DNA of 21,727 bases from a virus. The stretch spans positions 1 through 21,727 of the IMG/VR virus record IMGVR_UViG_3300044731_001506; one strand, given 5' to 3'. The position numbers and the translations under genes are program-made. Positions 3,955 to 21,727 of this stretch are shown piece by piece; the stretch's first letter is position 1, and each line of letters starts with the position of its first letter. Below the pieces are notes generated by a model, which saw nothing but the letters and a program-made list of their open reading frames with translations, had not been told where the DNA came from and made no database searches.

Positions 3955-3962
3955 AATTAATT

Positions 3963-5952: not shown

Positions 5953-6626
5953 TATTTAAACCCCAAAAATGAAGATACGTTTGAAGATACGTTTTTTAAA
6001 CCATCAAAAACTTTCACACCATATGTATCATTAGGATCTATTTTTTTTGTTTCATTTTTTCCGTTATTCTTTTTTTCAACAACTTTAGGCTTAACTTTTT
6101 CTTTTGGTACTGATGTAGTTTTTGTTTTGACTTTAATAATTTTTTGTATTTCAAGAGTAAATTTTAAACTATCCCCGTTATCGGCATTAAATTTTGGTGT
6201 GTAATTTAACAAAACAAGGTTGTCTATTTCATCAAATCCCCTAATAAATAAAGAGAATGTTTTTTGCGATTCATAAAGATTTTCAAAATATTTATGTGCA
6301 TCTAAAACTCTATTCTCTTCTACATTTTCTTTTATTTTAATACTTGAATTTGATGTTGTTTTTCCAAACAATAAACTTATTTTATTAATAATTCCGTTAT
6401 CTGCTTTTACTTCAACATCTTCATCGCTTGTTTCAATTGTTGGTATATTTGATATTGTTCCATCAATTGAAAACTTAGGATTTTCTAACACTCTTGAGTC
6501 AGAAACAGAAATGCCACTACCGATAGGTTTTGATGTTACTTTAGAAGAATAATTTCTAGAATCTTCATTTGTGCAATCAATATCAATAGAATTACCATCA
6601 CCATCTAAAATAACTATTGCGCCCAT
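5952..6626 (-). CDS. Dit-like distal tail / baseplate protein
   Basis: The 224-residue protein lies directly after the tape measure gene. Its N-terminal half (SKPIGSGISVSDSRVLENPK then FSIDGTISNIP) resembles the Dit-like N-terminal domain of myophage tail proteins ('h.v..g..isDH....p..l.i.g..s'). It includes RVLDAHKYFENLYESQKTFS and LVLLNYTPKFNADNGDSLKF, also typical of this family. The C-terminal 55 residues are lysine-rich and low-complexity (KEKVKPKVVEKKNNGKNETKK), then a short tail carrying a tandem NVSS-NVSS duplication. The start overlaps the tape measure stop as TAATG, with AGGGA just upstream. Expected role: adaptor between tail tube and hub. Confidence 0.65.
   Translation of the reverse strand: MGAIVILDGDGNSIDIDCTNEDSRNYSSKVTSKPIGSGISVSDSRVLENPKFSIDGTISNIPTIETSDEDVEVKADNGIINKISLLFGKTTSNSSIKIKENVEENRVLDAHKYFENLYESQKTFSLFIRGFDEIDNLVLLNYTPKFNADNGDSLKFTLEIQKIIKVKTKTTSVPKEKVKPKVVEKKNNGKNETKKIDPNDTYGVKVFDGLKNVSSNVSSFLGFK
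5971..5994. repeat. Perfect 12-bp tandem duplication
   Basis: The unit GAAGATACGTTT occurs twice head to tail (5971-5982 and 5983-5994). It encodes a repeated NVSS near the C-terminus of the Dit-like protein and keeps the frame. It looks like a recent slippage event. Confidence 0.9.
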
Positions 6627-8470: not shown

Positions 8471-8732
8471 TTTTGTTATACTTTCTTTGCATTTCTAAGC
8501 TTTGCCTGTATTCAATTTCATGTTGCTGTTCCATGTATTCGATTTCATCAAAAATATCATCAAGAGTAAAATTCTTAAATAATTGTGATTTTGAGATTTT
8601 AAATTGATGACATATTCTCATAATTTTAAAATCTAACTTAGTTTGATTTTTAATGCGTCGAGAAACTTCGAGGAGCCAATGATCCGCTGGAACATTGCCC
8701 CTAAATCTTTTTTTAACAATTGTTCCATACAA
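8460..8732 (-). CDS. Tail assembly chaperone, frameshift extension (T part)
   Basis: This open frame encodes the C-terminal domain of the long tail assembly chaperone. It should be read from the slip site at 8714-8708, joining residue 130 of the upstream chaperone (counted from ATG 9097) to 82 residues beginning RFRGNVPADHWLLEVSRR, for about 212 residues in total. As a separate gene it would need a TTG start at 8732 with no Shine-Dalgarno sequence, so independent translation is unlikely. The frame is -1 relative to the upstream gene, as in the lambda G/GT and P2 E/E' pairs. The segment is helical and charged (DDIFDEIEYMEQQHEIEYRQ), as expected of a part that contacts the tape measure protein. 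It overlaps the tape measure start by 11 bp. Confidence 0.8.
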   Translation of the reverse strand: MYGTIVKKRFRGNVPADHWLLEVSRRIKNQTKLDFKIMRICHQFKISKSQLFKNFTLDDIFDEIEYMEQQHEIEYRQSLEMQRKYNKNGG

Positions 8733-9097
8733 TTCATTTTAATCACATGAATAAATAATTCGATAATCGTTAAAGCATCTGTTTTATTTATAACATCTCT
8801 AGTAAATGCAATATTATTTTTTGTAATATTTTTTAGCTTAGAAACTACATAATCAAAATTTAATTTTTTAATCAATTCACTAATAATTTCTTCAATATTT
8901 AATTTTTCAATATCTGGCCTGTAAACTATCTTTTCTTTGCCATCATCATCTTTAATAGTTTCTTTTTTAAAATTCTTTACACTTATTGCTAACATTGATA
9001 GACATTGCATATATAAATCGTATGAATCGCATGTTTCTAATTTTTCAATTACAAAATCATCGCCATCAATATTTACTTTAATTTTTTCTTCAGTCAT
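8633..9097 (-). CDS. Tail assembly chaperone (G part)
   Basis: The 154-residue protein lies between tail tube and tape measure, the conserved place for the chaperone that coats the tape measure protein during tail assembly. It is helical and charged, with IKVNIDGDDFVIEKLETCDS at the N-terminus, reminiscent of tube-associated chaperones. I chose ATG 9097 rather than the GTG at 9106 because AGGTGG lies 5 nt before it. The ATG overlaps the tube gene's stop. It ends 76 bp past a slippery A7 run that would extend a fraction of the product into the next frame. The function rests mainly on position and the frameshift, because these chaperones diverge strongly in sequence. Confidence 0.75.
   Translation of the reverse strand: MTEEKIKVNIDGDDFVIEKLETCDSYDLYMQCLSMLAISVKNFKKETIKDDDGKEKIVYRPDIEKLNIEEIISELIKKLNFDYVVSKLKNITKNNIAFTRDVINKTDALTIIELFIHVIKMNCMEQLLKKDLGAMFQRIIGSSKFLDALKIKLS
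8672..8714 (-). promoter_or_regulatory. Programmed -1 ribosomal frameshift signal
   Basis: On the minus strand the zero-frame codons TTA-AAA-AAA create the slippery heptamer A-AAA-AAA (8714-8708), followed by G. After a 6-nt spacer, GGGGCAATG (8701-8693) can pair with CATTG-g-CTCC (8681-8672, one bulged G, one G-U pair) around an 11-nt loop. A -1 slip reads AGA-TTT-AGG and enters the downstream open frame. Heptamer, spacer and hairpin match known tail-chaperone signals. Confidence 0.8.
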
Positions 9098-9515
9098 CTG
9101 TACCACCTATAAATATTTTTAAATTTTTAACTAAAAAAGTCCATTCAATTGGCTTTTCTTCCACGTTACGATCTAATTCTGGCCAGCCTTTTAATCGTCC
9201 TAATCCTGTACAAAGCGTTAAACCGTTTGTATCTTTAACTATAATTGGAATTTCTTTTGTGCCGTTTGGTGCTAACTCATCCGCTAATAATAAAGCCGAT
9301 AGTTTATCATTTGTTTTAAATGTTGAAATAATTGTTACCGAAATTGTTCCCGTTCTATCTGGATTTTTTACAAAAATGGAATCGCCGTGCGCTCCTGATT
9401 TTAATGTATATAAATCCTTTGTTCTTTTTACTTTAATAAAAGAACCATCAGCAAAACCAGTTACTTCTACACCGCCAATATTTACAATTGTTGATTCTGG
9501 ATTATAAAGCGTCAT
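9090..9515 (-). CDS. Tail tube protein (DUF3277)
   Basis: The 141-residue product fits DUF3277 tube proteins of myophages. It begins MTLYNPESTIVNIGGVEVTG and continues with FADGSFIKVKRTKD, KNPDRTGTISVTIISTFKTN and CTGLGRLKGWPELDR, all family-like. These proteins stack as hexameric rings inside the sheath. The order, sheath then tube, is standard. The start has AAGAGGAAAC directly upstream, a good ribosome binding site. The predicted fold is a small beta-barrel with few cysteines. Confidence 0.88.
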   Translation of the reverse strand: MTLYNPESTIVNIGGVEVTGFADGSFIKVKRTKDLYTLKSGAHGDSIFVKNPDRTGTISVTIISTFKTNDKLSALLLADELAPNGTKEIPIIVKDTNGLTLCTGLGRLKGWPELDRNVEEKPIEWTFLVKNLKIFIGGTDD

Positions 9516-9523
9516 GTTTCCTC

Positions 9524-10567
9524 TTATAATTGGTAATTAATTTGAGCTTTAACTTTGTGAATTGCACCCGTTAAAATCAAATCTATTTTAATGTCATCAA
9601 GTATTCGTTTAGCTTTAATATTTTTTGATATTTTAGCAGGCTTTGGCATTTCAACTTTATATTCACTTACGATTTCATTTGCATTTTCTAAAACTTCATG
9701 AATACAATTTTGAATAGTTACAATTCCGCTTTCCGTGAATAAAACTTTTTTACTATTTTTTAAAACAAAAAATATATTCTCTTGGACTCTTGCCTTAATA
9801 AAATCTAACCCAATTTTTATATCAATTGGCGTTCCGTCGCAAAGTGTCCCGTATCTAGTTACGTTAACGCCTGCTATCATTTGATAGGTGTTGCCATTTT
9901 TTGCAAATATATTTTCTGATTGAGTTCTGCTTAAACTGTCTGATTTAATCCCTGATAGCGTTTTATATGCAATTGTTGCTGTTCCTGCTTTATATGCTAA
10001 ACATTGTCCAAGCTTTGCACATTCAGCAAATTTACTTGCTTCCTCCGAGTACATCCAAGCAGTATTTTTAAAGCCTGATTTTTTTAAAACGCTTCCTAAA
10101 TCTTTTCCTGTTTCTTTAAACGGATTATCACGAGAAGCGGGATCAGATGTAGCGACAGCATAAATTTTTGCAGTTGTATCAATATATTTTGCAATAGAAA
10201 TAATTTCGTCATCTTTTTTTGTGTATGTGGCCAAACCATACCAATCATCATTTACATTACTAATTTTGCTTAATGCTGTTGGCCAGTCATCAATTTTACC
10301 GTCTTCTTTTTTAGTAATTGGTGCAATAATTAACTGTGATGGTCTAGGCTCTTGTGCAAAAAAAGCACTAGCTGCAATGTATGCGCTATCGGTCGCAAGA
10401 AAACCGTCGTCTAATATTGCTTTTGATTCCGAATAAATTCTAAGAACATCATTAAATGAACTAGGAACGTTATCAGTAACAAATAGCCCAGTTCCAAACC
10501 CTTTTTGTGATATACTTTGAGCGGAATTAACCGCCGTCACTTCTATAATTTCTTCAATTTGTGCCAT
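9524..10567 (-). CDS. Tail sheath protein (DUF3383)
   Basis: The 347-residue protein is the contractile sheath subunit. It matches DUF3383 sheath-type proteins through FGTGLFVTDNVPSSFNDVLR, DSAYIAASAFFAQEPRPSQL and the middle WYGLATYTKKDDEIISIAKY. The C-terminus contains KAKRILDDIKIDLILTGAIH, also family-like. At 347 residues it is a compact sheath without extra surface domains. It precedes the tube gene by 8 bp and its start overlaps the end of the upstream neck gene by 14 bp. Its presence is the direct evidence that the virion has a contractile tail. Confidence 0.9.
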   Translation of the reverse strand: MAQIEEIIEVTAVNSAQSISQKGFGTGLFVTDNVPSSFNDVLRIYSESKAILDDGFLATDSAYIAASAFFAQEPRPSQLIIAPITKKEDGKIDDWPTALSKISNVNDDWYGLATYTKKDDEIISIAKYIDTTAKIYAVATSDPASRDNPFKETGKDLGSVLKKSGFKNTAWMYSEEASKFAECAKLGQCLAYKAGTATIAYKTLSGIKSDSLSRTQSENIFAKNGNTYQMIAGVNVTRYGTLCDGTPIDIKIGLDFIKARVQENIFFVLKNSKKVLFTESGIVTIQNCIHEVLENANEIVSEYKVEMPKPAKISKNIKAKRILDDIKIDLILTGAIHKVKAQINYQL

Positions 10568-11021
10568 AATTTAATTTAACCTTTTCTATATTTTCATGCG
10601 TTTCTATTTCTTCGTTTTTAAAATAAAAATAAGATTCAAAAGTCATTCGCGGTAAATAACTTTCACTAAATAAATATGATGTGTTTTTAATTTGGTTATT
10701 TTTTTTCCAAGATATGTCAATATCTGCAAGCTTATTTTGTATTTCTTCTAGTGGCCACATGTTAGAAATTTTTATTGCATTTTTTGCAGCATCTGAGCCA
10801 ATACAGTCAAAACAAATTTCTAGCTCTAACAATTGGATATATTTTAATTGATTATCAATTATTTCTGTTTTTTTCCGACCAATAGGACTAATTCCTATAA
10901 TATATACAGTAATATAATTTTGTTTTTTTGTTTCACAATCTTGTTCTGCAATATAAACAGGTAAATTTAAATATTCAGAAACTAATTTACATATTTTTCT
11001 TATTTCATTTGTAACTATCAT
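10554..11021 (-). CDS. Neck / tail terminator protein (LIC_12616-like)
   Basis: The 155-residue protein lies between the head-closure genes and the sheath. Its N-terminus (IRKICKLVSEYLNLPVYIAE) followed by KKQNYITVYIIGISPIGRKK and LELEICFDCIGSDAAKNA resembles the neck terminator family that caps the tail at the head side. The C-terminal part (SYLPRMTFESYFYFKNEEIE) is also typical, with 'R...e..f.y' strands. It overlaps the upstream gene's end and the sheath start, so it is tightly coupled. The assignment is by pattern and place. Confidence 0.65.
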   Translation of the reverse strand: MIVTNEIRKICKLVSEYLNLPVYIAEQDCETKKQNYITVYIIGISPIGRKKTEIIDNQLKYIQLLELEICFDCIGSDAAKNAIKISNMWPLEEIQNKLADIDISWKKNNQIKNTSYLFSESYLPRMTFESYFYFKNEEIETHENIEKVKLNYGTN

Positions 11022-11337
11022 ACGAAAAAGCTATTGCCTCGTAGCGTGCAGAATTTCCTAGATAGTATTGGTCAATATATTTAATTTTATATACAATATT
11101 ATTATATATAAATTCGTCATTTAATTTTATTTCTTTGTCTGCAAAGACAAGAACTGATGACTTTATTTTAGATAAATCTTTGTCGTTTATTAAGCGCATG
11201 CCGTTATATGGCTGTATTCCTAAATATAATTCAATATTTTCTTTAACTATTTCTTCAAAAACACCGTCAATTAAGTCACCTTCTTTTCTAGTAATATTTA
11301 TTTTTAGTCTCGGAATTGCCCGCGGTTTTTGCTTCAT
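11005..11337 (-). CDS. Head closure / head-tail joining protein
   Basis: The 110-residue protein is small and beta-rich, with ENIELYLGIQPYNGMRLI in the middle and LNDEFIYNNIVYKIKYIDQ near the end. The latter resembles the 'GD.i..ng..y.V..v......' pattern of head-closure proteins. I chose ATG 11337, which overlaps the previous stop as ATGA and has GGAGAG 7 nt upstream; the open frame itself extends to a TTG at 11352. Position between the HK97-gp10-like gene and the tail terminator supports a neck role. No firm family match was made. Confidence 0.55.
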   Translation of the reverse strand: MKQKPRAIPRLKINITRKEGDLIDGVFEEIVKENIELYLGIQPYNGMRLINDKDLSKIKSSVLVFADKEIKLNDEFIYNNIVYKIKYIDQYYLGNSARYEAIAFSYDSYK

Positions 11338-11786
11338 TTTTCCACTCTCCAAGAAACATTTCTTCTTAAATGGCCTTTATCAATCAATGGTTTTGATGAT
11401 TTTTTCTTCTTTTTAGTATACTCGCTATTTTCTTTAAAACTTCCATTTGTTATTTCTAATTGCATTTCCTGCATCGCCTTAACACCAACTTTTCTAAATG
11501 CAGATTTAAAAGAAGCTTTAAAATTAATAGTATCCCTAACTGCATCTTCAATATCTTTTTTAAAATCTTTATTTTTATTTAGAGTTTGACGCATAAATGG
11601 GCGCGGTGGAATATTTTTACCATCTCCGTACTCATTTATTTTTGCAATAGTTGCTAATGTTAATTCAGAATCTTTTTCTTTTTTACCATCAAAAAATCCG
11701 ACTTTTAATTTTGCGCCCGCCAAGTCTTCAAGGACACGTTTTAGTTTTTGATAGTTTTCAGTATTCGCTTGTATTTTAGTTGTCAT
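11334..11786 (-). CDS. Tail completion protein, HK97 gp10-like
   Basis: The protein carries KLKVGFFDGK near residue 25, then TIAKINEYGDGKNIPPRPFM. This is the classic pattern of HK97 gp10-like and related neck/tail completion proteins (VGf..g...y.g...a.ia..nE.G...iP.RPFm). The remainder is lysine-rich and helical, ending in LIDKGHLRRNVSWRVEK, again typical (l.dtG.L..s...rv). I chose ATG 11786, giving 150 residues and an 11-bp overlap with the preceding gene (ATGACAACTAA). The open frame continues to a GTG at 11825, but the conserved part begins after ATG 11786. The product joins the tail to the filled head. Confidence 0.8.
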   Translation of the reverse strand: MTTKIQANTENYQKLKRVLEDLAGAKLKVGFFDGKKEKDSELTLATIAKINEYGDGKNIPPRPFMRQTLNKNKDFKKDIEDAVRDTINFKASFKSAFRKVGVKAMQEMQLEITNGSFKENSEYTKKKKKSSKPLIDKGHLRRNVSWRVEK

Positions 11787-12198
11787 TACCGCGCCATGCT
11801 CTAGGATTGTCACCATTCCTATCACTGAATTGAGTTTTATTTATTTCTTTATTATTTATATTTTTCTCATACTCATTTGCAGAAATTCCACCAATAAATA
11901 TTGTACAACCCGAGATATATTTATTTTCTAATTCTTTAGCTAATGTTTTATAATTGGATTGAATTTGAGACGCTTTTATACTCAATTTACCCTCTGTTTC
12001 ATCAACATAACGGGAGTATTTTGCTATTAAAATGTAACAAGCTTCGATTGCCGCGGACTCAACATCTCCAAATGCGTCAATCAGAAATAAAATTTCGTTA
12101 TCTAAAAGCAACGGATCGTTTGCGTCCGTGTCTTGAATTAAAAAACGAAGTTTGTCTAATTTTGAAGCGTTCGGATTTCCAGAGTAACTAAAATTCAT
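11776..12198 (-). CDS. Head-tail adaptor / head completion protein
   Basis: The 140-residue protein matches connector adaptors that bind under the portal. It reads FSYSGNPNASKLDKLRFLIQ, then DTDANDPLLLDNEILFLI, the 'vRf.iGDtd..dpll.DeEI' pattern, followed by a helix rich in Ala (AAIEACYILIAKYSRYVD) and a repeat-like SIKASQIQSNYKTLAKEL. I chose ATG 12198 because AGGA lies 8 nt upstream; the GTG at 12204 is too close to it. It overlaps the next gene by 11 bp. Confidence 0.75.
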   Translation of the reverse strand: MNFSYSGNPNASKLDKLRFLIQDTDANDPLLLDNEILFLIDAFGDVESAAIEACYILIAKYSRYVDETEGKLSIKASQIQSNYKTLAKELENKYISGCTIFIGGISANEYEKNINNKEINKTQFSDRNGDNPRAWRGNDN

Positions 12199-12230
12199 TG
12201 GCACTTTCCTAAAACATTTAAATTAGTGTT

Positions 12231-12500
12231 TTAAATTGATTTACAGCGTTCATTTTTTTTAATGACCTGAGCATCATTTTTTTTATTTTCTACATTAAAA
12301 ACTAGACCGTATTTATTAGCGGAAGCCTGCACTTGCTCATGGGAGCCAATTAATTTTCTGACGTACAACTGGTTTGCTGCAAAATCAGTCAAACAATCTA
12401 TTGGCTCGCCAAATTCCAAAACGCGCCCATGATAGTAAAGCCCCGCGCGTGCTTGGACGTAAAATTTTTCAATTTCATAAAATGGCGGTTGTCTTAACAT
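12231..12500 (-). CDS. Small phage protein of unknown function
   Basis: The 89-residue protein lies between the major capsid and the adaptor gene. Its segment KFYVQARAGLYYHGRVLEFG followed by CLTDFAANQLYVRKLIGSHE resembles short head-region proteins of Mu-like and related phages that carry a 'r.g..h.G.......v..s..ql..L...gav' motif. The C-terminus is lysine-rich. AAGG lies 7 nt before the ATG. It ends 32 bp before the adaptor start. I cannot assign a role; a minor head component is plausible from the context. Confidence 0.6.
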   Translation of the reverse strand: MLRQPPFYEIEKFYVQARAGLYYHGRVLEFGEPIDCLTDFAANQLYVRKLIGSHEQVQASANKYGLVFNVENKKNDAQVIKKNERCKSI

Positions 12501-12512
12501 ATTGTTACCTTA

Positions 12513-13520
12513 TTATGATACGATGTTATCAATAAATACGCCTAATTCTTTCCCAACTAAACGCTGATCTCGTGCGTCCGATGTTCTGACGATGTGCGAT
12601 TTACAATTGATATCCCACCACATTTCGGTACAAAAAGAACCATTCCCAATGCGATCAAATTCTCGATTACCGTTTAGTTGTTTTTGTAAACCTGTCCACG
12701 CAAATGTATATCCGCTTGCTGGAGTCTTTAAACCTGGGCTTTCAGGAACGTAACAAAGCAATGCTGATTTTCCTGATATATATTCGTTTGGTGTTGTTGT
12801 ATCACCTTCTTTACCTTGGTTATAAATCGCATCCATAATATAAATATTATCTAATTCAAAAATAGCCGCGATTGTTTGCCGTGTGACAATTGCAGGGTCA
12901 TCACCGCCTTTGTACAATATCCTTGATAAAAGCTCGGTATTTTTCTTTAATTTTCTCCATGCAGGTTTTGATAATACTAATGTATTTGGCTCAAATCCTG
13001 TTTTTAAATAGACAAGCTCTTTCCAATCATCAATATTATCTATTGGCGCTGCGGTGCGTTGATCCCATTGGATAATATTATCTTCTTTATTTTCCTTACC
13101 GCCTTTAAAATTTGTTTCCCAGCAACCAGTTCTCATAAATGTTCTCGCGAAATTAATTTCACGATTTATCAAAGATTTTCTTGTTAGTAATTCGGTAGTA
13201 TCTATCTGAATGTTTAACGGTTCGTCAGCATTAACTTGATGAGCAATTGGAATTTTTGTTTGTAATTCCCATGACTCACAAATATAAGCATCTTTGCTTT
13301 TAACAGTTAATTCGATTGACGGAGCATTCCCACCTGGTGCAACTTTTTTTACATCATCCCTTAAATACTGCTTTGAATCATAAATAAAATAAGAAGCTGA
13401 TTCTTTTTCAACTGGGATTTCAGGAAATATTTTATTTGCTACAAATTTATCTGCATCTTGTATATATGCAACAGATATATTTGTCATCGGTCTATTTATA
13501 TGAATTTTATTATCGCTCAT
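12513..13520 (-). CDS. Major capsid protein
   Basis: The 335-residue protein forms the icosahedral shell. Its N-terminal part, NISVAYIQDADKFVANKIFP then EIPVEKESASYFIYDSKQYL and RDDVKKVAPGGNAPSIEL, is a recurring pattern in one family of myo- and siphophage major capsid proteins (va..vFP.vpV...sd.YyvyDk...fr.....rapG..s). The middle contains TELLTRKSLINREINFARTF and the C-terminal half EYISGKSALLCYVPE and TGLQKQLNGNREFDRI. An HK97 fold is expected from the family. It overlaps the decoration gene as ATGA and follows the protease-scaffold, the canonical order. Confidence 0.88.
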   Translation of the reverse strand: MSDNKIHINRPMTNISVAYIQDADKFVANKIFPEIPVEKESASYFIYDSKQYLRDDVKKVAPGGNAPSIELTVKSKDAYICESWELQTKIPIAHQVNADEPLNIQIDTTELLTRKSLINREINFARTFMRTGCWETNFKGGKENKEDNIIQWDQRTAAPIDNIDDWKELVYLKTGFEPNTLVLSKPAWRKLKKNTELLSRILYKGGDDPAIVTRQTIAAIFELDNIYIMDAIYNQGKEGDTTTPNEYISGKSALLCYVPESPGLKTPASGYTFAWTGLQKQLNGNREFDRIGNGSFCTEMWWDINCKSHIVRTSDARDQRLVGKELGVFIDNIVS

Positions 13521-13885
13521 GCTGTTCCTTTATTATAAAACTTATGAAGTATAACTTCAATTATTTGCCCTTTTGTTCCTTTTTCCAAAGCCTTTGCTAA
13601 GATTAATTGGTTTTCTTTTGTTTTTACTGCGCATCCTTCCGCATCCGATGAAATAAAATCACCGTCTGCAATTACGTCTCCACAAATTATTTTTGCAAAA
13701 CCGATTGTCCTTAAAAGTACAGTCTGGTCTTTGTAAAATTCATTTAATGAAACACCATCCGAATACTCGTTAAGTTTTGAAGTAAAAACCTTGCCGTCTC
13801 TTATTGTGCAAAATTTATATTGTTTTATCTCATTATCCCCTACTGGAAATGATGTTAAATCAATCCCTGCTCCTAATGTAGCCAT
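13517..13885 (-). CDS. Head decoration protein, DUF2190-like
   Basis: The 122-residue protein lies between the protease/scaffold and the major capsid gene, where decoration or stabilising proteins are found. It contains YKFCTIRDGKVFTSKLNEYS and LLRTIGFAKIICGDVIADGD followed by FISSDAEGCAVKTKEN, resembling the 'G.a...va.G..v..d..G.a.......' beta-barrel pattern of DUF2190 proteins. A strong Shine-Dalgarno (AGGAGA) lies 7 nt before ATG, inside the upstream spacer, in line with a high-copy product. Confidence 0.65.
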   Translation of the reverse strand: MATLGAGIDLTSFPVGDNEIKQYKFCTIRDGKVFTSKLNEYSDGVSLNEFYKDQTVLLRTIGFAKIICGDVIADGDFISSDAEGCAVKTKENQLILAKALEKGTKGQIIEVILHKFYNKGTA

Positions 13886-13889
13886 TTAA

Positions 13890-14948
13890 TTATCTCCTAG
13901 CATTTTGTTTTATTGCTTTAGCGACTGCTTTTTCTTTTGTTAAATTTGAATCTTTATCCATATAGCTTTTTGCTATTATTTCAGTTTTTGATTGAGGAGT
14001 ATTTGTTGTTTTGTCCTCTGGATTATCTTCCCCAAATGGAACAAAATTTGCGGATTTTTTAATTGTGTCTACTGCGCTATTTAACGTTTGTTCAATAATT
14101 TTAAATTGCTCTGGATTATTTTTTGAAACAGCCATTAAAGCGTCAATTAAATTATCTTCGGCTGGTGTATATTTTTTTAAGTCAGAAACTTTTGTTTGAA
14201 ATTCTTTCCTGATTGTTTCTGTTTTTTCTTTTTCATACTTAGCTAACATATCCTCATTTTGTTTTATAATAAAAGCTAATTCTGGAGAAGCTGATTTAAT
14301 TATGTCTTCTTTTGTCTGCTCTTTTTTCTCTCCAAACTCTTTTTTTATTTCTTCTAATAAAGTTAAATTTGTTGCAACTTCTTTTTTAATATCTTCAATT
14401 TTTATTGTCATTTTTTTATTTTCTCCATCTAAACTTTTATTAAATTCAATTATTTGTACATTATTGGCAGGCTGATCAACGATAGATATTTCAAAAACAT
14501 CAACGTCAGAAAGTCTTCTTTTTGGATTATTTATATATGGATTTTCTTTTGATTTTTGAATATTTTCTTGCTGTAATAACTCTGTTAAAGCGGTACCTTT
14601 TACGGAAAAACCTTTAAATTTTTCTTGTTCTATTTCCTCCTTTATTTTGTCATTTAAAGGCTCGAACTCGCCAAACCATGAACCTTCTTTAATTACTTGA
14701 TCACCAATATTTATATCACTTTTAGAGATATAACATTCAACTAATGCAATATCATCACTAATAACATGCTGTTTACCTGTTTGTAGCTGCTTCTTTTTCA
14801 TGTAATTGTAGCAAGCTTTTTTTACTTCTTCTTTGCTTAATATATCGCCGTGTAAATCTGGTAAATCAGGCTGTAAAATTAAACCTGTTATTGTTTTATA
14901 ATCTTTATTAAATTTGTATGATTTAGATATAATTTCAAACTTATTCAT
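13890..14948 (-). CDS. Capsid maturation protease (XkdF-type) fused to scaffold
   Basis: The 352-residue protein has two parts. Residues about 1-165 match XkdF-like prohead proteases: DLHGDILSKEEVKKACYNYM, then HVISDDIALVECYISKSDIN, VIKEGSWFGEFEPLNDKI and FKGFSVKGTAL. His61 and Ser115 are the likely catalytic pair by family pattern. Residues about 180-352 are charged and helical (KEEFGEKKEQ-like coiled coil), typical of a scaffold that is removed on maturation. An internal ATG at 14411 (codon 180), preceded by GGAG at 11 nt, might give the scaffold alone. The gene starts with GAGG 6 nt before ATG and follows the MuF-like gene. Confidence 0.82.
   Translation of the reverse strand: MNKFEIISKSYKFNKDYKTITGLILQPDLPDLHGDILSKEEVKKACYNYMKKKQLQTGKQHVISDDIALVECYISKSDINIGDQVIKEGSWFGEFEPLNDKIKEEIEQEKFKGFSVKGTALTELLQQENIQKSKENPYINNPKRRLSDVDVFEISIVDQPANNVQIIEFNKSLDGENKKMTIKIEDIKKEVATNLTLLEEIKKEFGEKKEQTKEDIIKSASPELAFIIKQNEDMLAKYEKEKTETIRKEFQTKVSDLKKYTPAEDNLIDALMAVSKNNPEQFKIIEQTLNSAVDTIKKSANFVPFGEDNPEDKTTNTPQSKTEIIAKSYMDKDSNLTKEKAVAKAIKQNARR
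14409..14426 (-). promoter_or_regulatory. Candidate internal start site for a separate scaffold protein
   Basis: On the minus strand GGAG (14426-14423) precedes an in-frame ATG (14411) by 11 nt, an A-rich spacer. The start lies exactly where the protease part ends and the helical scaffold part begins. Nested scaffold starts are known in phages such as lambda (Nu3 within C). The spacing is rather long, so this is only a candidate. Confidence 0.35.
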
Positions 14949-14956
14949 TCTCTACC

Positions 14957-15775
14957 TCAAAATTTTATTACGACGAAACAACGACAACGCGCATGTAAGA
15001 TTGGACGCTCAACTTTTGCACCAAAACCCGTTGTAAATAATTCTTCCATTTGGATTATTTGACCATTCATAGGCGCGCAGTTTGCACATTGTCTTTCATC
15101 GCTCGCTGTAACCCATTCTTTTTTTGTATTTGTTGGAATATCCCCATCAGAAAACATTTGTTTTTGCATTAAATCCCTGCCTGCACTTACCGCATTTGCT
15201 GACTCTGTTAATGCGATAGTTTCAGCTCTGAGCTTCAACATTTGCTTTGCTTTTTCTTCAACTATTTTTTTAATAACTTCTTTATTTGTATTTTTACTTA
15301 ATAAATTGTCTTCAATTGATTTTAACGTTTTAGATTGTGGAGCATTTAAATTTATATTTAGTTTTATTTTATCAGCAATTGTTTTAACTGATAACTGTCT
15401 GTCAATGCCTTCATAAACAATATCTTTTATAATTTTATCTTGTTGTTCTGTGAGTCCTGTAATTAATTTATTTGTTACAGTTTTTACTTGACTTAAGTTA
15501 ACTTCCCTATCTAAATCTAGCAAAATATGTTTTGTTTTTTCCATTTCATTTGCGGCTGTATTTATAGTACTTAAAATTACAGGAGAAAATTGTTTTAAAT
15601 TTTGCTGAAATTTTTCAAAATTAATAGCTCTTTTAACTCGTGATAAATTTCTTTCTTCTATTGCCTTAATTAAATCGTCAATTTCAATTTCTTCATTAAC
15701 GCTGTTTACAATATCTAAAAACACGTTTTTAAATTCACGCGATAGTTTTTTTATCAGAAATTCTACTTCAAACAT
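14957..15775 (-). CDS. Minor head protein, MuF-like (Mu gp30 family)
   Basis: The 272-residue protein follows the portal gene and overlaps it by 8 bp. The N-terminal 200 residues are long charged helices. The C-terminus carries the MuF-type domain: W221-VTASDERQCANCAPMNG with Cys230 and Cys233, then PILHARCRCFVV with Cys264 and Cys266. This pattern of paired cysteines and 'HpRCRC' is the family hallmark and suggests a metal-binding or structural site. In Mu and SPP1 the equivalent minor head proteins are packaged with or near the portal and help head assembly. There is no fused toxin domain. Confidence 0.85.
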   Translation of the reverse strand: MFEVEFLIKKLSREFKNVFLDIVNSVNEEIEIDDLIKAIEERNLSRVKRAINFEKFQQNLKQFSPVILSTINTAANEMEKTKHILLDLDREVNLSQVKTVTNKLITGLTEQQDKIIKDIVYEGIDRQLSVKTIADKIKLNINLNAPQSKTLKSIEDNLLSKNTNKEVIKKIVEEKAKQMLKLRAETIALTESANAVSAGRDLMQKQMFSDGDIPTNTKKEWVTASDERQCANCAPMNGQIIQMEELFTTGFGAKVERPILHARCRCFVVIKF

Positions 15776-17075
15776 TGCTTATATCCTCACCAATTTGCGG
15801 AATATTACCACGTTCGCGTATTTCTTTTTCGAGTGTATGATCAGGAGTTAAAGCCCCACATTGCACGAGTTCCATTATCGATTTTGCAAATATTTCAAAA
15901 TCGATTGTATCAATATTTCCATGTTTTATTTTGACCATATTTTCCAACGGCCAGTTGTTCATAATATATATTTGTCTGATCAGACTATCGTTAATAACAT
16001 CTTGTACAACATCTAAATAATAATTTAATGATTGAGCAAATAGTTTGATTTTAACTTCGGCTAGGTTATAAGTACCACCTGCTTTTTTAGCTCCCATATA
16101 CATAAAATCAGCTAATAATTGAATTGCAATATTTGCTTCGTATCGTTCTATAATTGTATTTGTATCAATTTGTTTTTGTCCTGCCGCTTTAACCAGATCA
16201 AATTGAAATTGGCGATGATTTGTTCCTTCATATATATTAGAAGGTAACAAAATACCCGCTTGCGTGTTGTTTCTTATATTTACTATTTGGCTTGCTAAAT
16301 TATCGTATTGTCTTTTATTTTCATCTGTTTTTTTACTCATAATGCTAGCGGGAGCGTAAACAACAGGAATACCAGCAAGATCTCGCTCAATCGAAATGGC
16401 TTCAATTCGTCTTATTTTTTTTACGGTTTCGTAACTCTCGTAACAGCCCCGAAGAATAGAAATGCCTTCAGGTAAATCACATTCTGTTGTTGTTCTAAAA
16501 TGTAATAATCTTTCGATGGGAATAAAAACCTCACGCCCACTTGATGGGATCCGCTGGAAAGCGCCAATTGGTGTCCCCGTAGGATCAAACGCCCATTTGA
16601 TTATTGTTTTTTGTGACCTTAAAGGAATTTTACGCGGCGCCCAAAGGCCATCTCGATAATTATGTTTAGAATAAAACCTACGATCAGTATGTAGCCCTAG
16701 TCTTTGCTTCCAAACAATTTCTAACAAACTGTAACCATGCGGTAAAAATGTAAGCGCATCATTCATTGTCTGAGTAAAAGTTTTTTCCATATCATTGAGC
16801 ATTTGTTCAACGATTATTCCTCTTTTTTCTAAATCATTATCAACGCAATCAGTCGAATATTTCCAAGAAACATTGTAAAATAATTGATTCATGAGAGTCA
16901 AAACGCCGTTAATTGTTGCGTCGTTTTTTCTCATTTCATCAAATATTTCAGCGCCATTTCTGCTACGTAACTCAGGTACAAATTCCTCAAATGTATATCC
17001 AGAATTACGTAACGAACCAGTGTCTCCAATCTCAATCATTTCATTACTTGTATTACTTAATTTCTTTACGCCCAT
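15768..17075 (-). CDS. Portal protein (DUF935 / Mu gp29-like)
   Basis: The 435-residue protein lies between large terminase and the MuF-like gene, the portal position. It contains NDATINGVLTLMNQLFYNVS, FTQTMNDALTFLPHGYSLLE and IVWKQRLGLH, typical of Mu-type portals ('D..i...l..r...v....w.i', then 'll.dal..l.yG.sv.Ei.w'). Later segments FIPIERLLHFRTTTECDLPE and GISILRGCYESYETVKKIRR match the pattern in which the portal recruits 'pyG.gllr..yw....K'. The C-terminal part is helical. There is no clear Shine-Dalgarno before ATG 17075, which lies inside the end of the terminase gene, so coupling is likely. The protein forms the ring through which DNA is packaged. Confidence 0.8.
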   Translation of the reverse strand: MGVKKLSNTSNEMIEIGDTGSLRNSGYTFEEFVPELRSRNGAEIFDEMRKNDATINGVLTLMNQLFYNVSWKYSTDCVDNDLEKRGIIVEQMLNDMEKTFTQTMNDALTFLPHGYSLLEIVWKQRLGLHTDRRFYSKHNYRDGLWAPRKIPLRSQKTIIKWAFDPTGTPIGAFQRIPSSGREVFIPIERLLHFRTTTECDLPEGISILRGCYESYETVKKIRRIEAISIERDLAGIPVVYAPASIMSKKTDENKRQYDNLASQIVNIRNNTQAGILLPSNIYEGTNHRQFQFDLVKAAGQKQIDTNTIIERYEANIAIQLLADFMYMGAKKAGGTYNLAEVKIKLFAQSLNYYLDVVQDVINDSLIRQIYIMNNWPLENMVKIKHGNIDTIDFEIFAKSIMELVQCGALTPDHTLEKEIRERGNIPQIGEDISNV

Positions 17076-18523
17076 AGTCTAAATTCACTCTTATAAAGCA
17101 TATGATCAGCGTTAAAATCAACATCATTGATATCCTGATCTTCAAAACTTTTTTCTATTAAATACGAAACACCTTGCGTAAATGCGTCCACAATATCATC
17201 ATTAGGAGCACGAGGAAAACCTAGTAATTGATTGTTAAACTCACTCCAAAAACTAGCATTTTCTTCTATTGGAAAAAATATTTTATTAGATTCTAAAACT
17301 GGAGTTATTGCATTCGCTCGTGTTATTTTATCTTCACAGGGATGTACTAATTTATACGCCATAACAATATCTTTGATACAATCAGCCACAGCCTCGCCAT
17401 TTGCTCTTGCTTCAATAACAACTGTATTCACTTTATATTTATTATAATTATCTAAAACTGCTTGGACTGTTTCTTTAAAGCCTAACCTTTTATTTATTAC
17501 ATCAATTAAATAAATTACTTTTTCTTTGATTCCTAAAACTACGCCAGCAACAAAATCTGAATCTGATTTTTTTGAAAATGGAAAATCCCATGATGATATT
17601 ATTAAATCAAATTTTTGCGGCAATTCTGCTGGATAATATTTGTTTTTAAAATGTTCTAATTTAAATAAATTACCCTGTTTTACTCTCGGCTCTTGCTCGT
17701 ATAACGCTGCCCAAATGTGAGGTAATTTTCTTGATTTTGTTTTAAGCATTCTTTCGAGCGAATATCGTTGCGGGTGTAGAACTTCTCCCGCTTTTCTGAA
17801 AGGTTCGTCTTTATCCGCAATAGCTTTAAATTTGATAACTTTCCAATCGTCAGGAAATTTTGCAATTAATCTACCCGCAAGATCATCTTCTGCCCAGCGG
17901 GTTAACACAATAATAATTCCACTTTCAGGAGACAAACGAGTATCTGCTACTGCATCGAACCATTCGTATTGATCGTCCTTTAATTTTTTTGAATTTGCGT
18001 CTTTGGGTGAGCGGATAGGGTCATCAATTATTAATAAGTCAGCACCAAAACCCGTTGTTGTCCCATCCATTCCTACGGCTTTGTAATTTGCTTTATTTGT
18101 TAGTCCCCAATGTTCAATTGATTTATTATTATTTGCAATGCCTATATTATATGTATCTTGTATATATTTCTCAAGCACAACATCACGAGCAGCACGCGAA
18201 AATTTATTCGCAAGCTCTTGATTGGCGGAAGCCGCGATCACTTCAAATAGAGGGTTGTTTAATGCACAAAACAAACCAAAACGAACTGTTATGGATTCAC
18301 TTTTAAGATGACGTGGTGGCATATTCACGATTAAACGCGGGGATTTTCCAGCTAACAAATCATAATAAAATAAAGTCAATTCTTTAAATAAATAATTTAA
18401 ATAAGGAGCATCTTTATATTTTGGGACAGTATTTTTCACCATTGCCGCAAAATCTTTTCGCTTATGCATTAATTGCAGGCTATCTATTTCTTTTTGAATA
18501 TCGCTAAAATTATACAAAAACAT
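17066..18523 (-). CDS. Terminase large subunit
   Basis: The 485-residue protein is the packaging ATPase and nuclease. Residues 67-76 (NMPPRHLKSE) form the Walker A-like motif, LLIIDDPI at 163-170 the Walker B motif, and IIIVLTRW at 203-210 the coupling motif. The RNase H-like nuclease domain shows SWDFPFSKKSDSDF (Asp313), VVIEARANGEAV (Glu371) and NDDIVDAFTQGVSY (Asp443/Asp446). The Shine-Dalgarno TGGAGGT abuts ATG 18523 with no spacer, whereas a TTG at codon 3 (18517) has a 6-nt spacer, so translation may start there. It is the first gene of the long minus-strand virion operon and is separated from the small subunit gene by about 2.4 kb. Confidence 0.93.
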   Translation of the reverse strand: MFLYNFSDIQKEIDSLQLMHKRKDFAAMVKNTVPKYKDAPYLNYLFKELTLFYYDLLAGKSPRLIVNMPPRHLKSESITVRFGLFCALNNPLFEVIAASANQELANKFSRAARDVVLEKYIQDTYNIGIANNNKSIEHWGLTNKANYKAVGMDGTTTGFGADLLIIDDPIRSPKDANSKKLKDDQYEWFDAVADTRLSPESGIIIVLTRWAEDDLAGRLIAKFPDDWKVIKFKAIADKDEPFRKAGEVLHPQRYSLERMLKTKSRKLPHIWAALYEQEPRVKQGNLFKLEHFKNKYYPAELPQKFDLIISSWDFPFSKKSDSDFVAGVVLGIKEKVIYLIDVINKRLGFKETVQAVLDNYNKYKVNTVVIEARANGEAVADCIKDIVMAYKLVHPCEDKITRANAITPVLESNKIFFPIEENASFWSEFNNQLLGFPRAPNDDIVDAFTQGVSYLIEKSFEDQDINDVDFNADHMLYKSEFRLWA

Positions 18524-18641
18524 ACCTCCAGCTTTATTTTCAGCATGTTTTCGCAGTAAATAGCAATAGATAATATTTAAAATAATTAATAACTATATTA
18601 AAAATACAAATTGCATTTATTATTTTTTTTACAATTGGGAG

Positions 18642-18661
18642 TTATCCACAGGTTATCCACA
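18642..18661 (+). other. Two tandem perfect DnaA boxes
   Basis: TTATCCACA occurs at 18642-18650 and again at 18653-18661, in direct orientation, 11 bp apart from start to start, close to one helical turn. Both match the DnaA consensus exactly. The surrounding 100 bp on the left are almost pure A+T. Whether host DnaA acts here as a replication or transcription factor is not shown. Confidence 0.75.
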
Positions 18662-18679
18662 TCTTTTATTCATGGCTAA

Positions 18680-18690
18680 GTTAAAGTAAC
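18680..18690. promoter_or_regulatory. Palindrome GTTA-N3-TAAC, candidate operator, copy 1
   Basis: GTTAAAGTAAC is an inverted repeat with a 3-nt centre, between the DnaA boxes and the plus-strand promoter. Its right half (AAAGTAAC) recurs at 18714-18721, 31 bp on, directly before the -35 element. Copies 2 and 3 lie in the other two intergenic regions of this module. Confidence 0.4.
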
Positions 18691-18723
18691 CATGATTTGA
18701 TTAAAATTACAGCAAAGTAACAT

Positions 18724-18752
18724 TTGACTTTAGGGGAGAGAAATTTTAAAAT
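18724..18752 (+). promoter_or_regulatory. Sigma70-type promoter reading rightwards
   Basis: TTGACT (18724-18729), a 17-bp spacer, and TAAAAT (18747-18752) make a good promoter on the plus strand. It points away from the terminase operon. No open reading frame follows; an intrinsic terminator ends about 44 bp after the expected start site. Confidence 0.6.
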
Positions 18753-18758
18753 TTGAAA

Positions 18759-18803
18759 ACTACTAAGCAAGATCACGGGGAGGCAATAGTGCCTCCTTTT
18801 TTT
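18759..18803 (+). ncRNA. Possible very short RNA between promoter and terminator
   Basis: The promoter at 18724-18752 would start a transcript near 18759, which would end at the terminator at 18797-18803, giving about 45 nt. It has no coding capacity. It could be a small regulatory RNA, a leader remnant of a lost gene, or an insulating unit. The gene is inferred only from the promoter and terminator. Confidence 0.3.
18779..18803 (+). terminator. Intrinsic terminator, plus strand
   Basis: GGAGGCA (18779-18785) pairs with TGCCTCC (18790-18796) around a 4-nt loop, followed by seven T's. An outer pair, ATCACG (18772-18777) and CGTGAT (18811-18816), encloses the hairpin. The T run on the plus strand only makes it directional for rightward transcripts, although the hairpin may slow leftward ones coming from 18912. 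Confidence 0.8.
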
Positions 18804-18911
18804 ATTTGGGCGTGATTATTTCCAGCTTTCGGTCTGTATCAAAAATCAAAAAATAATCACCTTAAATTTTTATTAGCATTAAACTACTCTTAAAACAACT
18901 TCATAAATTCA

Positions 18912-19481
18912 TTATTTAAATATACTTTTCATATCAAATTCGTAATCATTAAGTTTAAATTTTTTCTTACTTTCATGTATTATTTTAATGCAATTTTCAA
19001 ACTTGAATTCAACCCGCTCATTTGCTTTTATTTTAAAAACTAACTTTGCAGAATAATCAATAAGGATATAATAAAATTGACTTCTTATTTCACTTAATTT
19101 TTCTAGTATTTTTAGATAAAATTCTCGTTCTTTATTGCTCATTGCAACAACAAAATAAGCGTGTGGTAGTGTAAATATTTCAAAATCTCTTTTTTCATCA
19201 AAATTAACAGCTATATCAAAAGTAATTTTATTAAATTCATCTTGATAAATTTCTGAAAATTTTTCGACTTGGTTCTTGCCGTCTTCACTTAAAACATTAT
19301 ATAAATAATTAACTATTTTATTTTTAGCATCTGAATATATCGGCATTTCTATAATTTTATTATCAACTAAACTATATAATTTTTTACTTTCTTCGTTAAT
19401 ATTTTTCAACATTTTAATTTTACTAGTGTTATTAAGGTAAGGAAACTTTTTATCTAAAAACGATATTTGTTCTTTAAGCAT
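18912..19481 (-). CDS. Unrecognised 189-residue protein
   Basis: I recognise no family. The product is rich in Lys, Glu, Phe and Ile, with no signal peptide or membrane segment, so it is probably cytoplasmic. The first 100 residues look helical (KIKMLKNINEESKKLYSLVD); the last 60 have alternating strands (YILIDYSAKLVFKIKANERV). An excellent Shine-Dalgarno (GGAGAG, 4 nt before ATG) supports the start and real translation. It lies 34 bp after the 70-residue gene, so the two probably share a transcript. About 390 bp without a gene separate it from the terminase start. Its place between the terminase genes suggests an accessory gene; base use is as AT-rich as the virion genes. Confidence 0.7.
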   Translation of the reverse strand: MLKEQISFLDKKFPYLNNTSKIKMLKNINEESKKLYSLVDNKIIEMPIYSDAKNKIVNYLYNVLSEDGKNQVEKFSEIYQDEFNKITFDIAVNFDEKRDFEIFTLPHAYFVVAMSNKEREFYLKILEKLSEIRSQFYYILIDYSAKLVFKIKANERVEFKFENCIKIIHESKKKFKLNDYEFDMKSIFK

Positions 19482-19515
19482 TCTTCTCTCCTAAGAATTA
19501 TTATTAAAATCTGCA

Positions 19516-19728
19516 TTAAGGAAGCATTCTTTTTTCCATTTCTCGATTAATTATCTTTTTAATTTCTTCAAAGATATCTAAATTTGTAGATTTAATTTGA
19601 ACATTACCATTTGCATGTAGCACGAGTACCTCTAATTTATCTTTGTTAAATTGAAAAGAAATAGTTTTATCTAAATTTATATATGTGAAACATTCATCAT
19701 TAGCTGGCAATTTAATAAAATCAGTCAT
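19516..19728 (-). CDS. Unrecognised 70-residue protein
   Basis: This small protein has no recognised family. It has a regular pattern of short strands (TYINLDKTISFQFNKDKLEV, LVLHANGNVQIK) followed by one C-terminal helix (DIFEEIKKIINREMEKRML), which suggests a compact alpha/beta fold. AGGGG 8 nt before ATG supports translation. It is the first gene of a minus-strand pair and faces a 255-bp intergenic region. A palindrome GTTAAGGTAAC lies about 31 bp upstream of its start, a plausible operator. Confidence 0.65.
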   Translation of the reverse strand: MTDFIKLPANDECFTYINLDKTISFQFNKDKLEVLVLHANGNVQIKSTNLDIFEEIKKIINREMEKRMLP

Positions 19729-19758
19729 TTTAATACCCCTATTTAAAAATAATTCTTT

Positions 19759-19769
19759 GTTACCTTAAC
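19759..19769. promoter_or_regulatory. Palindrome GTTA-N3-TAAC, candidate operator, copy 2
   Basis: The minus strand reads GTTAAGGTAAC, differing from copy 1 at one central base. It lies just upstream of the 70-residue gene, downstream of a -10-like TAATAT on the minus strand; I found no good -35 there. A binding site here could block transcription start. Confidence 0.4.
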
Positions 19770-19843
19770 TCATGTATATTAAATTGTAAATAGTTGTATG
19801 GGATTATTTGATAAGTATTTTTATATTACTCAAAAATTTGTCG

Positions 19844-19853
19844 TAATATATTA
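19844..19853. promoter_or_regulatory. 10-bp palindrome TAATATATTA in the divergent intergenic region
   Basis: A perfect AT-only palindrome midway between the divergently transcribed 70-residue and 224-residue genes. In DNA this AT-rich it can occur by chance; its central place is the only support for a regulatory role. Confidence 0.2.
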
Positions 19854-19904
19854 TACACGAATACAGTTCGCACACTATTACAGCAATCTAACTAATTACT
19901 TATT

Positions 19905-19932
19905 TTGACAAATATTTTTAATTGTTTATATT
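19905..19932 (+). promoter_or_regulatory. Near-consensus sigma70 promoter for the 224-residue gene
   Basis: TTGACA (19905-19910), a 16-bp spacer and TATATT (19927-19932), 51 bp before the chosen ATG. An inverted pair TAAC-N6-GTTA (19941-19954) lies at the expected start of transcription and could be an operator related to the GTTA-N3-TAAC palindromes. Confidence 0.7.
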
Positions 19933-19983
19933 TCAAATGGTAACAATCCAGTTATCAAAACAATTTTTTCTATGAGGTTTTGT

Positions 19984-20658
19984 ATGATTGTATGTCCATG
20001 CAAGAAAAAAAAATTATTTATACCTAACTCAATTGAACGAGTACGAGAGTTTTTTATATTTTGTTCTAATCTTGAAAAACATCCATTTATTATAGCCCAT
20101 AAAAATGGTGGAACTTTAAATTTAAATATCATTGAAAATGGAAAGTTCAAATTAACTTTCAACTTTGATGAATATCATCTTGAAAGTTTATTAACACGAG
20201 TTAGACAATTTTTAGCAAAAAATGAACTCTTTTATTTTAAAGATTTAAAAAAAGATGTAATTAAAGTATTTGGCGATGATAAAGAATTTGAAAAATTTTA
20301 TATTGAGCTTGTAAATAAAATAAATAAAAATTTTACTGATCAAAGGGACAAAATCGAAATCAATGGAAAAAATTTAATCGAGAAAAATAATTTTACTCAA
20401 CTAATGAAATATCGATTGTATACAGGCGCAATTCATTCTAGCGAGCGCATTAGTTCACCGCCAGATAGTGTTCAAAAAGGACTCGTTAATGATCATTGCT
20501 TGGCTTCTAAATATTTAACAATCTTTCTTGCGTCAAAAATAAATATAATTGTTCAACATATTTTTAACTTTCGATTACGTATATTAGAGATAGCTAAAGA
20601 TAAAGATAAAATTAATTTATTTTCTGAGCTTTCAAATTTTAGTGATCGTAAACTGTAA
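19984..20658 (+). CDS. Unrecognised 224-residue protein with its own promoter, candidate moron
   Basis: This is the only complete plus-strand gene. I chose ATG 19984 because GAGG (19974-19977) lies 6 nt before it, while the upstream in-frame ATG at 19972 has no Shine-Dalgarno. The product starts MIVCPCKKKKLFIPNS, with a CPC motif and four lysines, and has no signal peptide. Later segments include FDEYHLESLLTRVRQFLAKN, then a charged part and SERISSPPDSVQKGLVNDH near residue 160, ending in a helix rich in hydrophobic residues (YLTIFLASKINIIVQHIFNF). I recognise no family. The near-consensus promoter suggests expression in the prophage state, as for moron genes. A role in host fitness or phage exclusion is only a guess. 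Confidence 0.7.
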   Translation: MIVCPCKKKKLFIPNSIERVREFFIFCSNLEKHPFIIAHKNGGTLNLNIIENGKFKLTFNFDEYHLESLLTRVRQFLAKNELFYFKDLKKDVIKVFGDDKEFEKFYIELVNKINKNFTDQRDKIEINGKNLIEKNNFTQLMKYRLYTGAIHSSERISSPPDSVQKGLVNDHCLASKYLTIFLASKINIIVQHIFNFRLRILEIAKDKDKINLFSELSNFSDRKL

Positions 20659-20707
20659 TATAATTATTCAAGTAATCATTAAATATATACGATTTGCATT
20701 TATTGTG

Positions 20708-20765
20708 GCGGGGGTAGGCAGTTTTGGAAGTCGACCCCCCGCTCATGAAATTGACGGGGTACCCC
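20708..20765. other. GC-rich inverted repeats, candidate cos/pac region
   Basis: GCGGGGG (20708-20714) pairs with CCCCCGC (20736-20742) across 21 nt, and 13 nt further GGGGTACCCC (20756-20765) is a perfect palindrome. The block 20701-20860 has 76 G+C in 160 bases, against a far lower level nearby. It lies beside the small terminase gene, where packaging sites are common. The remainder of 20659-20909 shows no convincing gene; an open frame to 20860 starts at a GTG inside the previous gene and is probably spurious. Confidence 0.4.
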
Positions 20766-20865
20766 TATATACTAAGCTTTGCGTATTAGTTCACACCTTA
20801 AGCTCCTCTCGAACTGCTATACAACTAGGCGAAATTGTTACCCAAACTCACCCACCATAATGCTA

Positions 20866-20876
20866 GTTATCATAAC
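20866..20876. promoter_or_regulatory. Palindrome GTTA-N3-TAAC, candidate operator, copy 3
   Basis: GTTATCATAAC, extended by one base on each side (AGTTATCATAACT). It lies 34 bp beyond the stop of the small terminase gene, not at an obvious promoter. Same form as copies 1 and 2. Confidence 0.35.
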
Positions 20877-20909
20877 TGAGTTTTTACGCCCGAAAATATG
20901 GCAATAAAA

Positions 20910-21422
20910 TCACTCATTATCTACCGTTGAACTAGTACAAATTGTTAGTGTATCAGTCCCTTGCTCTCTCGATTTAAGCTCTAATAAGTGCGCTCTCATA
21001 GCCTCGATTTGGGCTAGTTGTTGGTCAAGCGTTAAATTATTGCTCTTATTTTCATCATCTTTTTTAAGGTCAATTTCTTTGCGATCTCGCCACTCATTTG
21101 GGAACCTGTTCTTTAAAAAAAAGATTAACGGAATAGGATTTGCTTTAGCATCGCCTTGCACTTGTAACTTTAGTTGAGTTTCAGCCCAAAGCCTAGATAA
21201 TCCGTCCGCTACTTCTTTCGCTTCCTTAAACTCTGGATATAAAACAAGCCAATTGTAAATCGTGGACTTATTCACTCTCAATAGTCCTGCAAAGCTTTCA
21301 AAGCTATAGCCAGCCCCCAAGTGTTCAATGAGAGTTTCGCAATATTCAGGCTGGTACTTTGTTGGATGTCCGCCCGATCTTTTCGGTGCTGGTTTTGTTG
21401 TTTCGTTATTACCTACATTCAT
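20910..21422 (-). CDS. Terminase small subunit
   Basis: The 170-residue protein is the DNA-recognition part of the packaging motor. The N-terminal segment RSGGHPTKYQPEYCETLIEH leads into a helix-turn-helix at about residues 40-65 (SFESFAGLLRVNKSTIYNWL). A long helix follows (EVADGLSRLWAETQLKLQVQ), then the family-typical LIFFLKNRFPNEWRDRKEID at about 100-118. The C-terminal 50 residues are predicted to contact the large subunit. The ATG overlaps the end of the preceding gene by 14 bp. Composition is richer in G+C than the neighbouring minus-strand genes. Its separation from the large subunit gene by about 2.4 kb is unusual. Confidence 0.88.
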   Translation of the reverse strand: MNVGNNETTKPAPKRSGGHPTKYQPEYCETLIEHLGAGYSFESFAGLLRVNKSTIYNWLVLYPEFKEAKEVADGLSRLWAETQLKLQVQGDAKANPIPLIFFLKNRFPNEWRDRKEIDLKKDDENKSNNLTLDQQLAQIEAMRAHLLELKSREQGTDTLTICTSSTVDNE

Positions 21423-21727
21423 TTAATTTTACCCTTTTCATATTATTACTATCTAATAATTTTTTATTTTCTGGTTCTAATAATTCTAATAATTTATAAT
21501 AAAATCCTAAAGATATATAAAAATCAAATTTATCAGTATATTTTTCATATTCATAAACTAGAAGTTTATAATCTCTAAATTTTATAAATGTTTTTCTATC
21601 GTAAAATTGGAGTTTTGAATCTTGAAGGATCTTTAATTCTGCACATAATAATTTATATATTTGATTTATGTTATCAATATACTCAAGATGAAATTCTCGA
21701 AATTCTGGATCTTGGAGATTGTGATAA
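21409..21727 (-). CDS. C-terminal part of an unrecognised protein (start outside window)
   Basis: A minus-strand frame enters at the right edge and stops with TAA at 21411-21409, giving 105 residues. No start codon with a ribosome binding site lies inside. The visible part is helical and charged, with PEFREFHLEYIDNINQIYKL, FYDRKTFIKFRDYKLLVYEY and GFYYKLLELLEPENKKLLDS. It has no recognised family. It overlaps the small terminase start by 14 bp, so it belongs to the same transcript. Base use is very AT-rich, unlike the terminase that follows. Confidence 0.6.
   Translation of the reverse strand, partial: YHNLQDPEFREFHLEYIDNINQIYKLLCAELKILQDSKLQFYDRKTFIKFRDYKLLVYEYEKYTDKFDFYISLGFYYKLLELLEPENKKLLDSNNMKRVKLNECR

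Follow-up and report, generated by a model that had tools for sequence, protein, structure and literature searches.

Several new phage-defense systems came from cargo sites at which one set of genes is swapped for another. The hotspots of P2 and P4 are 1 to 5 kb in length, lie between two conserved flanking genes, show high turnover, and are located beside the packaging site (PMC9122126). Whether cut DNA ends drive gene exchange in these hotspots is an open question (PMC9122126). Here, we analyze a segment that separates the genes for the small (terS) and large (terL) terminase subunits in a single virus record (IMGVR_UViG_3300044731_001506) of 21,727 bases, here referred to as the window; the record is a fragment of a genome. 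On the evidence of two genomes, the segment between terS and terL is very probably a site for accessory (moron) cargo in a phage or phage-plasmid of the Pigmentibacter type. A preliminary description had proposed such a layout from the letters of the window, and it is supported by the finding of the same terminase split, with a nonhomologous insert, in a related plasmid.

The window is most closely related to pGTC16762-3 (AP029162.1, 44,767 bases), a circular plasmid and one of three carried by the human isolate Pigmentibacter ruber GTC16762 (PMC11385108). This plasmid aligns to window positions 1196 to 18650 at 86% DNA identity, and most structural proteins are 79 to 95% identical, which places pGTC16762-3 in the same group of phages, as a phage-plasmid. 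From this kinship, the host of the window is probably a Silvanigrellaceae bacterium. The cargo layout proposed earlier stands, but the word “prophage” used with it is possibly wrong in detail, given that the relative is a circular phage-plasmid and is not integrated. In pGTC16762-3, the protein encoded at 22643 to 23680 appears by eye to be actin-like (ParM-type), with the usual N-terminal motif IGLDVGN located at the C terminus, as if circularly permuted; it had no significant Pfam or PDB sequence match.

Another contig in IMG/VR (33,972 bases; the twin contig) is 100% identical to the window in the compared parts of positions 116 to 21727, a comparison that covered 1385 bases at one end, 3613 bases at the other end, and the TerL, portal, and capsid genes. 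The twin contig extends 12.3 kb past the window. At 7687 to 8499 it encodes an RNA ligase (PF09414, E = 1.4e-9) in a second stretch not common to pGTC16762-3; this stretch may be a further cargo site and may include a gene for tRNA repair. An XRE-family repressor-like gene at 8711 to 8998 of the twin contig, outside the window (PF01381, E = 9e-15), likely marks the immunity region. No further close relatives were found in viral contigs queried with TerL, portal, capsid, and a conserved noncoding island described below, or in a TerL search of genome contigs and 369 genomes from the phylum of a Bacteriovoracaceae genome. All relatives recovered within this scope, in which Silvanigrellales genomes could not be selected by name, are the twin contig, pGTC16762-3, and TerLs with ~29 to 38% identity.

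Both terminase subunits were identified by PHROG profiles (Table 1), confirming that 2.4 kb lies between them. The terminase of pGTC16762-3 is split at the same place, with the end of terS at 42602 and the start of terL at 2234, across the start of the record. By comparison, the two genes adjoin or overlap in pGTC16762-2, another plasmid of this strain, as well as in Listeria phage B054 and Proteus phage RS51pmB. Among 80 distant TerL loci (30 to 38% identity), nine had a findable terS of this family, and at each of these nine it abuts or overlaps terL. The expectation that the two genes are usually adjacent was thus borne out in distant relatives with both genes identified, and from this arrangement we conclude that the split is derived in this group; the insert-free state was seen in distant relatives only, and no close relative lacking the insert was found. 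Two tandem terS-like genes (102 and 166 amino acids [aa], both phrog_309) occupy 41807 to 42602 of pGTC16762-3, where the window has one. The G+C content of terS is 40%, versus 31% in the structural block. This higher value, together with a TerS identity to the plasmid of only 52% although TerL is 94% identical, suggests a separate exchange of terS.

TABLE 1 Features of the terminase region in the window and cargo genes at the same site in pGTC16762-3
Feature	Record	Positions	Strand	Basis or remarks
terL, terminase large subunit	Window	17066-18523	-	phrog_38, E 1.2e-95; Terminase_6C/6N; 94% identical to pGTC16762-3
Conserved AT-rich terL leader, ending in two tandem DnaA boxes	Window	18524-18661		Conserved in plasmid
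Variable cargo segment, ~2.04 kb	Window	18651-20690		Alignment break; different 4.08 kb in pGTC16762-3
c189, 189-aa orphan protein gene, second of minus-strand pair	Window	18912-19481	-	Length, codon statistics, RBS GGAG
c70, 70-aa orphan protein gene, first of minus-strand pair	Window	19516-19728	-	Codon statistics, RBS AGGGG
c224, 224-aa orphan protein gene, divergent from c70	Window	19984-20658	+	Length, codon statistics, RBS TGAGG
Conserved noncoding island downstream of terS, candidate cos/pac site	Window	20691-20909		Conservation and position
terS, terminase small subunit	Window	20910-21422	-	phrog_309, E 1e-21; 52% identical to plasmid TerS
DUF2158 protein, 80 aa	pGTC16762-3			E 6.6e-9
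Orphan, 145 aa	pGTC16762-3			
TacA1-family antitoxin, 99 aa	pGTC16762-3			PF08681, E 1.5e-10; directly before GNAT gene
GNAT toxin-like protein	pGTC16762-3			PF13508, E 5.7e-8
57/119-aa pair	pGTC16762-3			
Orphan, 127 aa	pGTC16762-3			

Comparing the two genomes, the DNA alignment stops at window position 18650 and restarts at 20707, so that a block of 2.0 kb in the window is exchanged for one of 4.1 kb in pGTC16762-3. None of the plasmid cargo genes has a match anywhere in the twin contig, nor does the plasmid contain any cargo gene of the window. At the DNA level, the two cargos resemble each other slightly more than simple base shuffles do, but to the same degree on either strand, a sign of base composition rather than homology. 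A related phage with other cargo at this site, which the preliminary description had proposed as a check, is therefore at hand in pGTC16762-3. The plasmid cargo includes a predicted type II toxin-antitoxin pair, judged by family matches for both partners, which are encoded by adjacent genes in one predicted operon. Taken together, the derived split and the exchanged content argue for an accessory site: the segment lies between two conserved backbone genes, its content differs between two genomes, and a sister state without an insert exists among distant relatives. Use of the word hotspot for this site rests on two genomes, one of them an independent relative.

The borders of the exchanged block are conserved. 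In pGTC16762-3, 127 bases beside terL and ~200 bases beside terS are retained, which indicates that these flanks are phage backbone and not cargo. The island downstream of terS contains short palindromes, among them AGTTATGATAACT, and a G/C-rich core, AGGGGTACCCCGTCAATTTCATGAGCGGGGGGTCGA, within which a 16-base stretch, ACCCCGTCAATTTCAT, is identical in the window and pGTC16762-3, where the island lies at 42603 to 42790. Its alignment score against the plasmid is 64.5, compared to a shuffle maximum of 15.5, and among viral contigs its core was found in the twin contig only. We consider the island a candidate terminase cleavage site (cos) or pac site; a conserved noncoding site at this position would fit such a role because TerL is highly conserved while TerS is not. 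On the other side, the terL leader carries tandem consensus DnaA boxes (TTATCCACA) at 18642 and 18653, 11 bases apart (18641 to 18661), of which pGTC16762-3 retains one at the same place (plasmid position 2108, minus strand). This leader may be an origin of replication or a DnaA-controlled promoter.

Rfam returned no match within 18400 to 21500, and neither the island nor a segment beside terL that bears a terminator folds with unusual stability. A strong terminator-like hairpin, GGGGAGGCAATAGTGCCTCC, followed by T7, is present on the plus strand at 18777 to 18805, with no plus-strand gene upstream. This could point to a small RNA, antisense with respect to the terL side.

The open reading frames (ORFs) previously listed in the segment, of 189 and 70 aa on the minus strand and 224 aa on the plus strand, were confirmed at their places. 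Those of c189 and c224 are longer than every ORF that arose when the segment was simulated 1000 times with a first-order Markov model (longest ORF per simulation, median 62 aa and maximum 143 aa). All three have a codon-position G+C bias and frame-specific codon usage resembling those of the structural genes, and each is preceded at normal distance by a Shine-Dalgarno sequence. Codon usage and ribosome sites, and for c189 and c224 also ORF length, thus identify them as real genes. For c224, an alternative start at 19972 (228 aa) is possible; the Shine-Dalgarno sequence TGAGG favors 19984.

The proposal that each gene has its own regulatory DNA does not hold for the minus-strand pair: only 34 bases separate c189 from c70, which lies upstream, and judged by this gap the two genes probably form one operon. 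The 255 bases between c70 and c224 constitute a putative divergent promoter region. Ahead of c224, at 19905 to 19932, is a -35/-10-like sequence, TTGACA-16-TATATT, that matches at 11 of 12 positions, in a segment where the overall count of promoter-like sites is at chance level. The G+C content of the cargo is 24%, against 31% in the structural block.

The preliminary description had recognized none of the three proteins, and profile searches agree with it: c70, c189, and c224 had no significant match in Pfam, PHROGs, NCBIfam, or PADLOC. PDB sequence searches gave chance matches only, and tblastn against phages and plasmids gave nothing beyond one chance-level match, to c189. Scans of viral contigs with all three proteins returned the twin contig alone. 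Scores were at chance level, or nothing was returned, for c189 and c224 against 358 genomes from the phylum of a Bacteriovoracaceae genome and for c224 against 398 genomes from the phylum of a Pseudomonas genome. In every library and collection searched, c70, c189, and c224 are therefore orphans. Possible resemblances of c224 to a HEPN-like family and of c70 to FlbD-like small proteins were supported by no library.

A segment without relatives in a metagenomic virus record could result from an assembly error joining unrelated DNA. However, the twin contig, a separate IMG/VR record though not necessarily an independent assembly, spans the whole region at 100% identity, and the insert of pGTC16762-3 is at exactly the same place; we consider an artifact extremely improbable. 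The three genes could also serve the phage itself, as early, replication-control, or packaging-helper functions that look variable through fast divergence. They adjoin terS, the candidate packaging site, and the DnaA boxes, and the divergence of TerS itself indicates more rapid evolution on this flank than in the structural block. Yet the differences between the relatives go beyond sequence to the number, sizes, order, and strands of the genes. The three proteins have no recognizable DNA-binding or replication domain, and the repressor-like helix-turn-helix (HTH) gene and VapE-type helicase of the phage are located elsewhere. The preliminary description had asked whether related phages carry the same three genes as conserved essential functions; none of the three is a conserved phage function, and a role for them in the phage's own cycle is quite improbable.

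Two further explanations are subcases of the accessory cargo reading. One is that c70 and c189 form a toxin-antitoxin or addiction module that retains the phage-plasmid, like the TacA/GNAT pair of the relative. The arrangement is suggestive, with a small gene followed directly by a larger one in one probable operon, and the predicted toxin-antitoxin pair at the same site is carried by a relative that is itself a circular plasmid. Neither protein, however, matches a toxin or antitoxin family in Pfam, NCBIfam, or PHROGs, and both lack the usual marks of such proteins; c70 gave no match to HTH or ribbon-helix-helix (RHH) domains and has no strong acidic or basic character. An addiction module in the window is therefore an unlikely reading, if not a negligible one.

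The other is that c189 is a very divergent defense candidate of the Uma2/DUF820 type (PD-(D/E)XK-like). The only defense family that PADLOC returned for the segment was PDC-S03, a Uma2-like family, which matched c189 at an E value of 0.0017 in a collinear alignment to a profile of equal length. Uma2 motifs are present in the PDC-S03 members that we collected, from which two sequences on the wrong strand were dropped ahead of testing; the hhalign score of c189 against their profile was the best among controls by a small margin, and the strand-helix-strand layout of the C-terminal half of c189 fits by eye. The match was nevertheless not upheld. In hmmsearch against a profile of 18 PDC-S03 members, c189 scored 3.5 bits, and several shuffled sequences scored higher; the hhalign probability was 4.5%; and of 1017 pattern-keeping shuffles, 19 did as well as c189 when aligned globally to the profile. 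The catalytic glutamate position is seemingly lost, and AlphaFold2 models made without alignments were unusable for c189, as for c224 (pLDDT of 41). Despite a faint collinear likeness, c189 thus differs from the PADLOC PDC-S03/Uma2 family in that its similarity is not significant against shuffled controls, and we regard membership as very unlikely.

Returning to the segment as accessory cargo, we propose that the backbone is fixed on either side while the cargo, here the putative c70-c189 operon and the divergent c224, would be swapped as a block between relatives. The cargo would be transcribed from its own intergenic promoters while the element is carried and would benefit the carrier cell or the element, most likely through phage exclusion, antiphage defense, or addiction. 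Turnover of cargo at this position might be explained by free DNA ends made at the packaging site. Given a cargo site, its location and the toxin-antitoxin-like pair of the relative make a role of the three genes in exclusion or defense plausible, at somewhat less than an even chance; addiction or maintenance, argued on the same grounds, is decidedly less likely, and other functions that benefit the carrier account for most of the rest. For the orphans of the window, the toxin-antitoxin pair of the relative is no direct evidence. A more specific proposal, which we put forward only tentatively and consider rather unlikely, is that this packaging site-adjacent hotspot between terS and terL is peculiar to Silvanigrellaceae phage-plasmids and carries, in the window, a new two- or three-gene antiphage or exclusion system of undescribed families. 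The window represents a phage lineage of Silvanigrellaceae for which only one relative was found, so that new functions may reasonably be sought among its orphan genes.

Among known systems, the nearest is the terS-terL cargo of pGTC16762-3, which shares the backbone, the split terminase, and the conserved borders with the window but has entirely different cargo genes. Modules of the TacAT type (DUF1778 plus GNAT) are present at this site in the plasmid but absent from the window, and they have no similarity to the window genes. With the defense hotspots of P2 and P4, the site shares a small locus between conserved genes and turnover, and it borders a candidate packaging site where those hotspots lie beside an established one. 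Those hotspots hold many validated defense systems, compared to two examples here, none validated, and they are flanked by gpA and gpQ (or by psu and int), whereas the present site lies between the terminase subunits. If the island is indeed the packaging site, the segment would be another defense-type hotspot beside a terminase cut and would bear on the question raised for P2 and P4 (PMC9122126).
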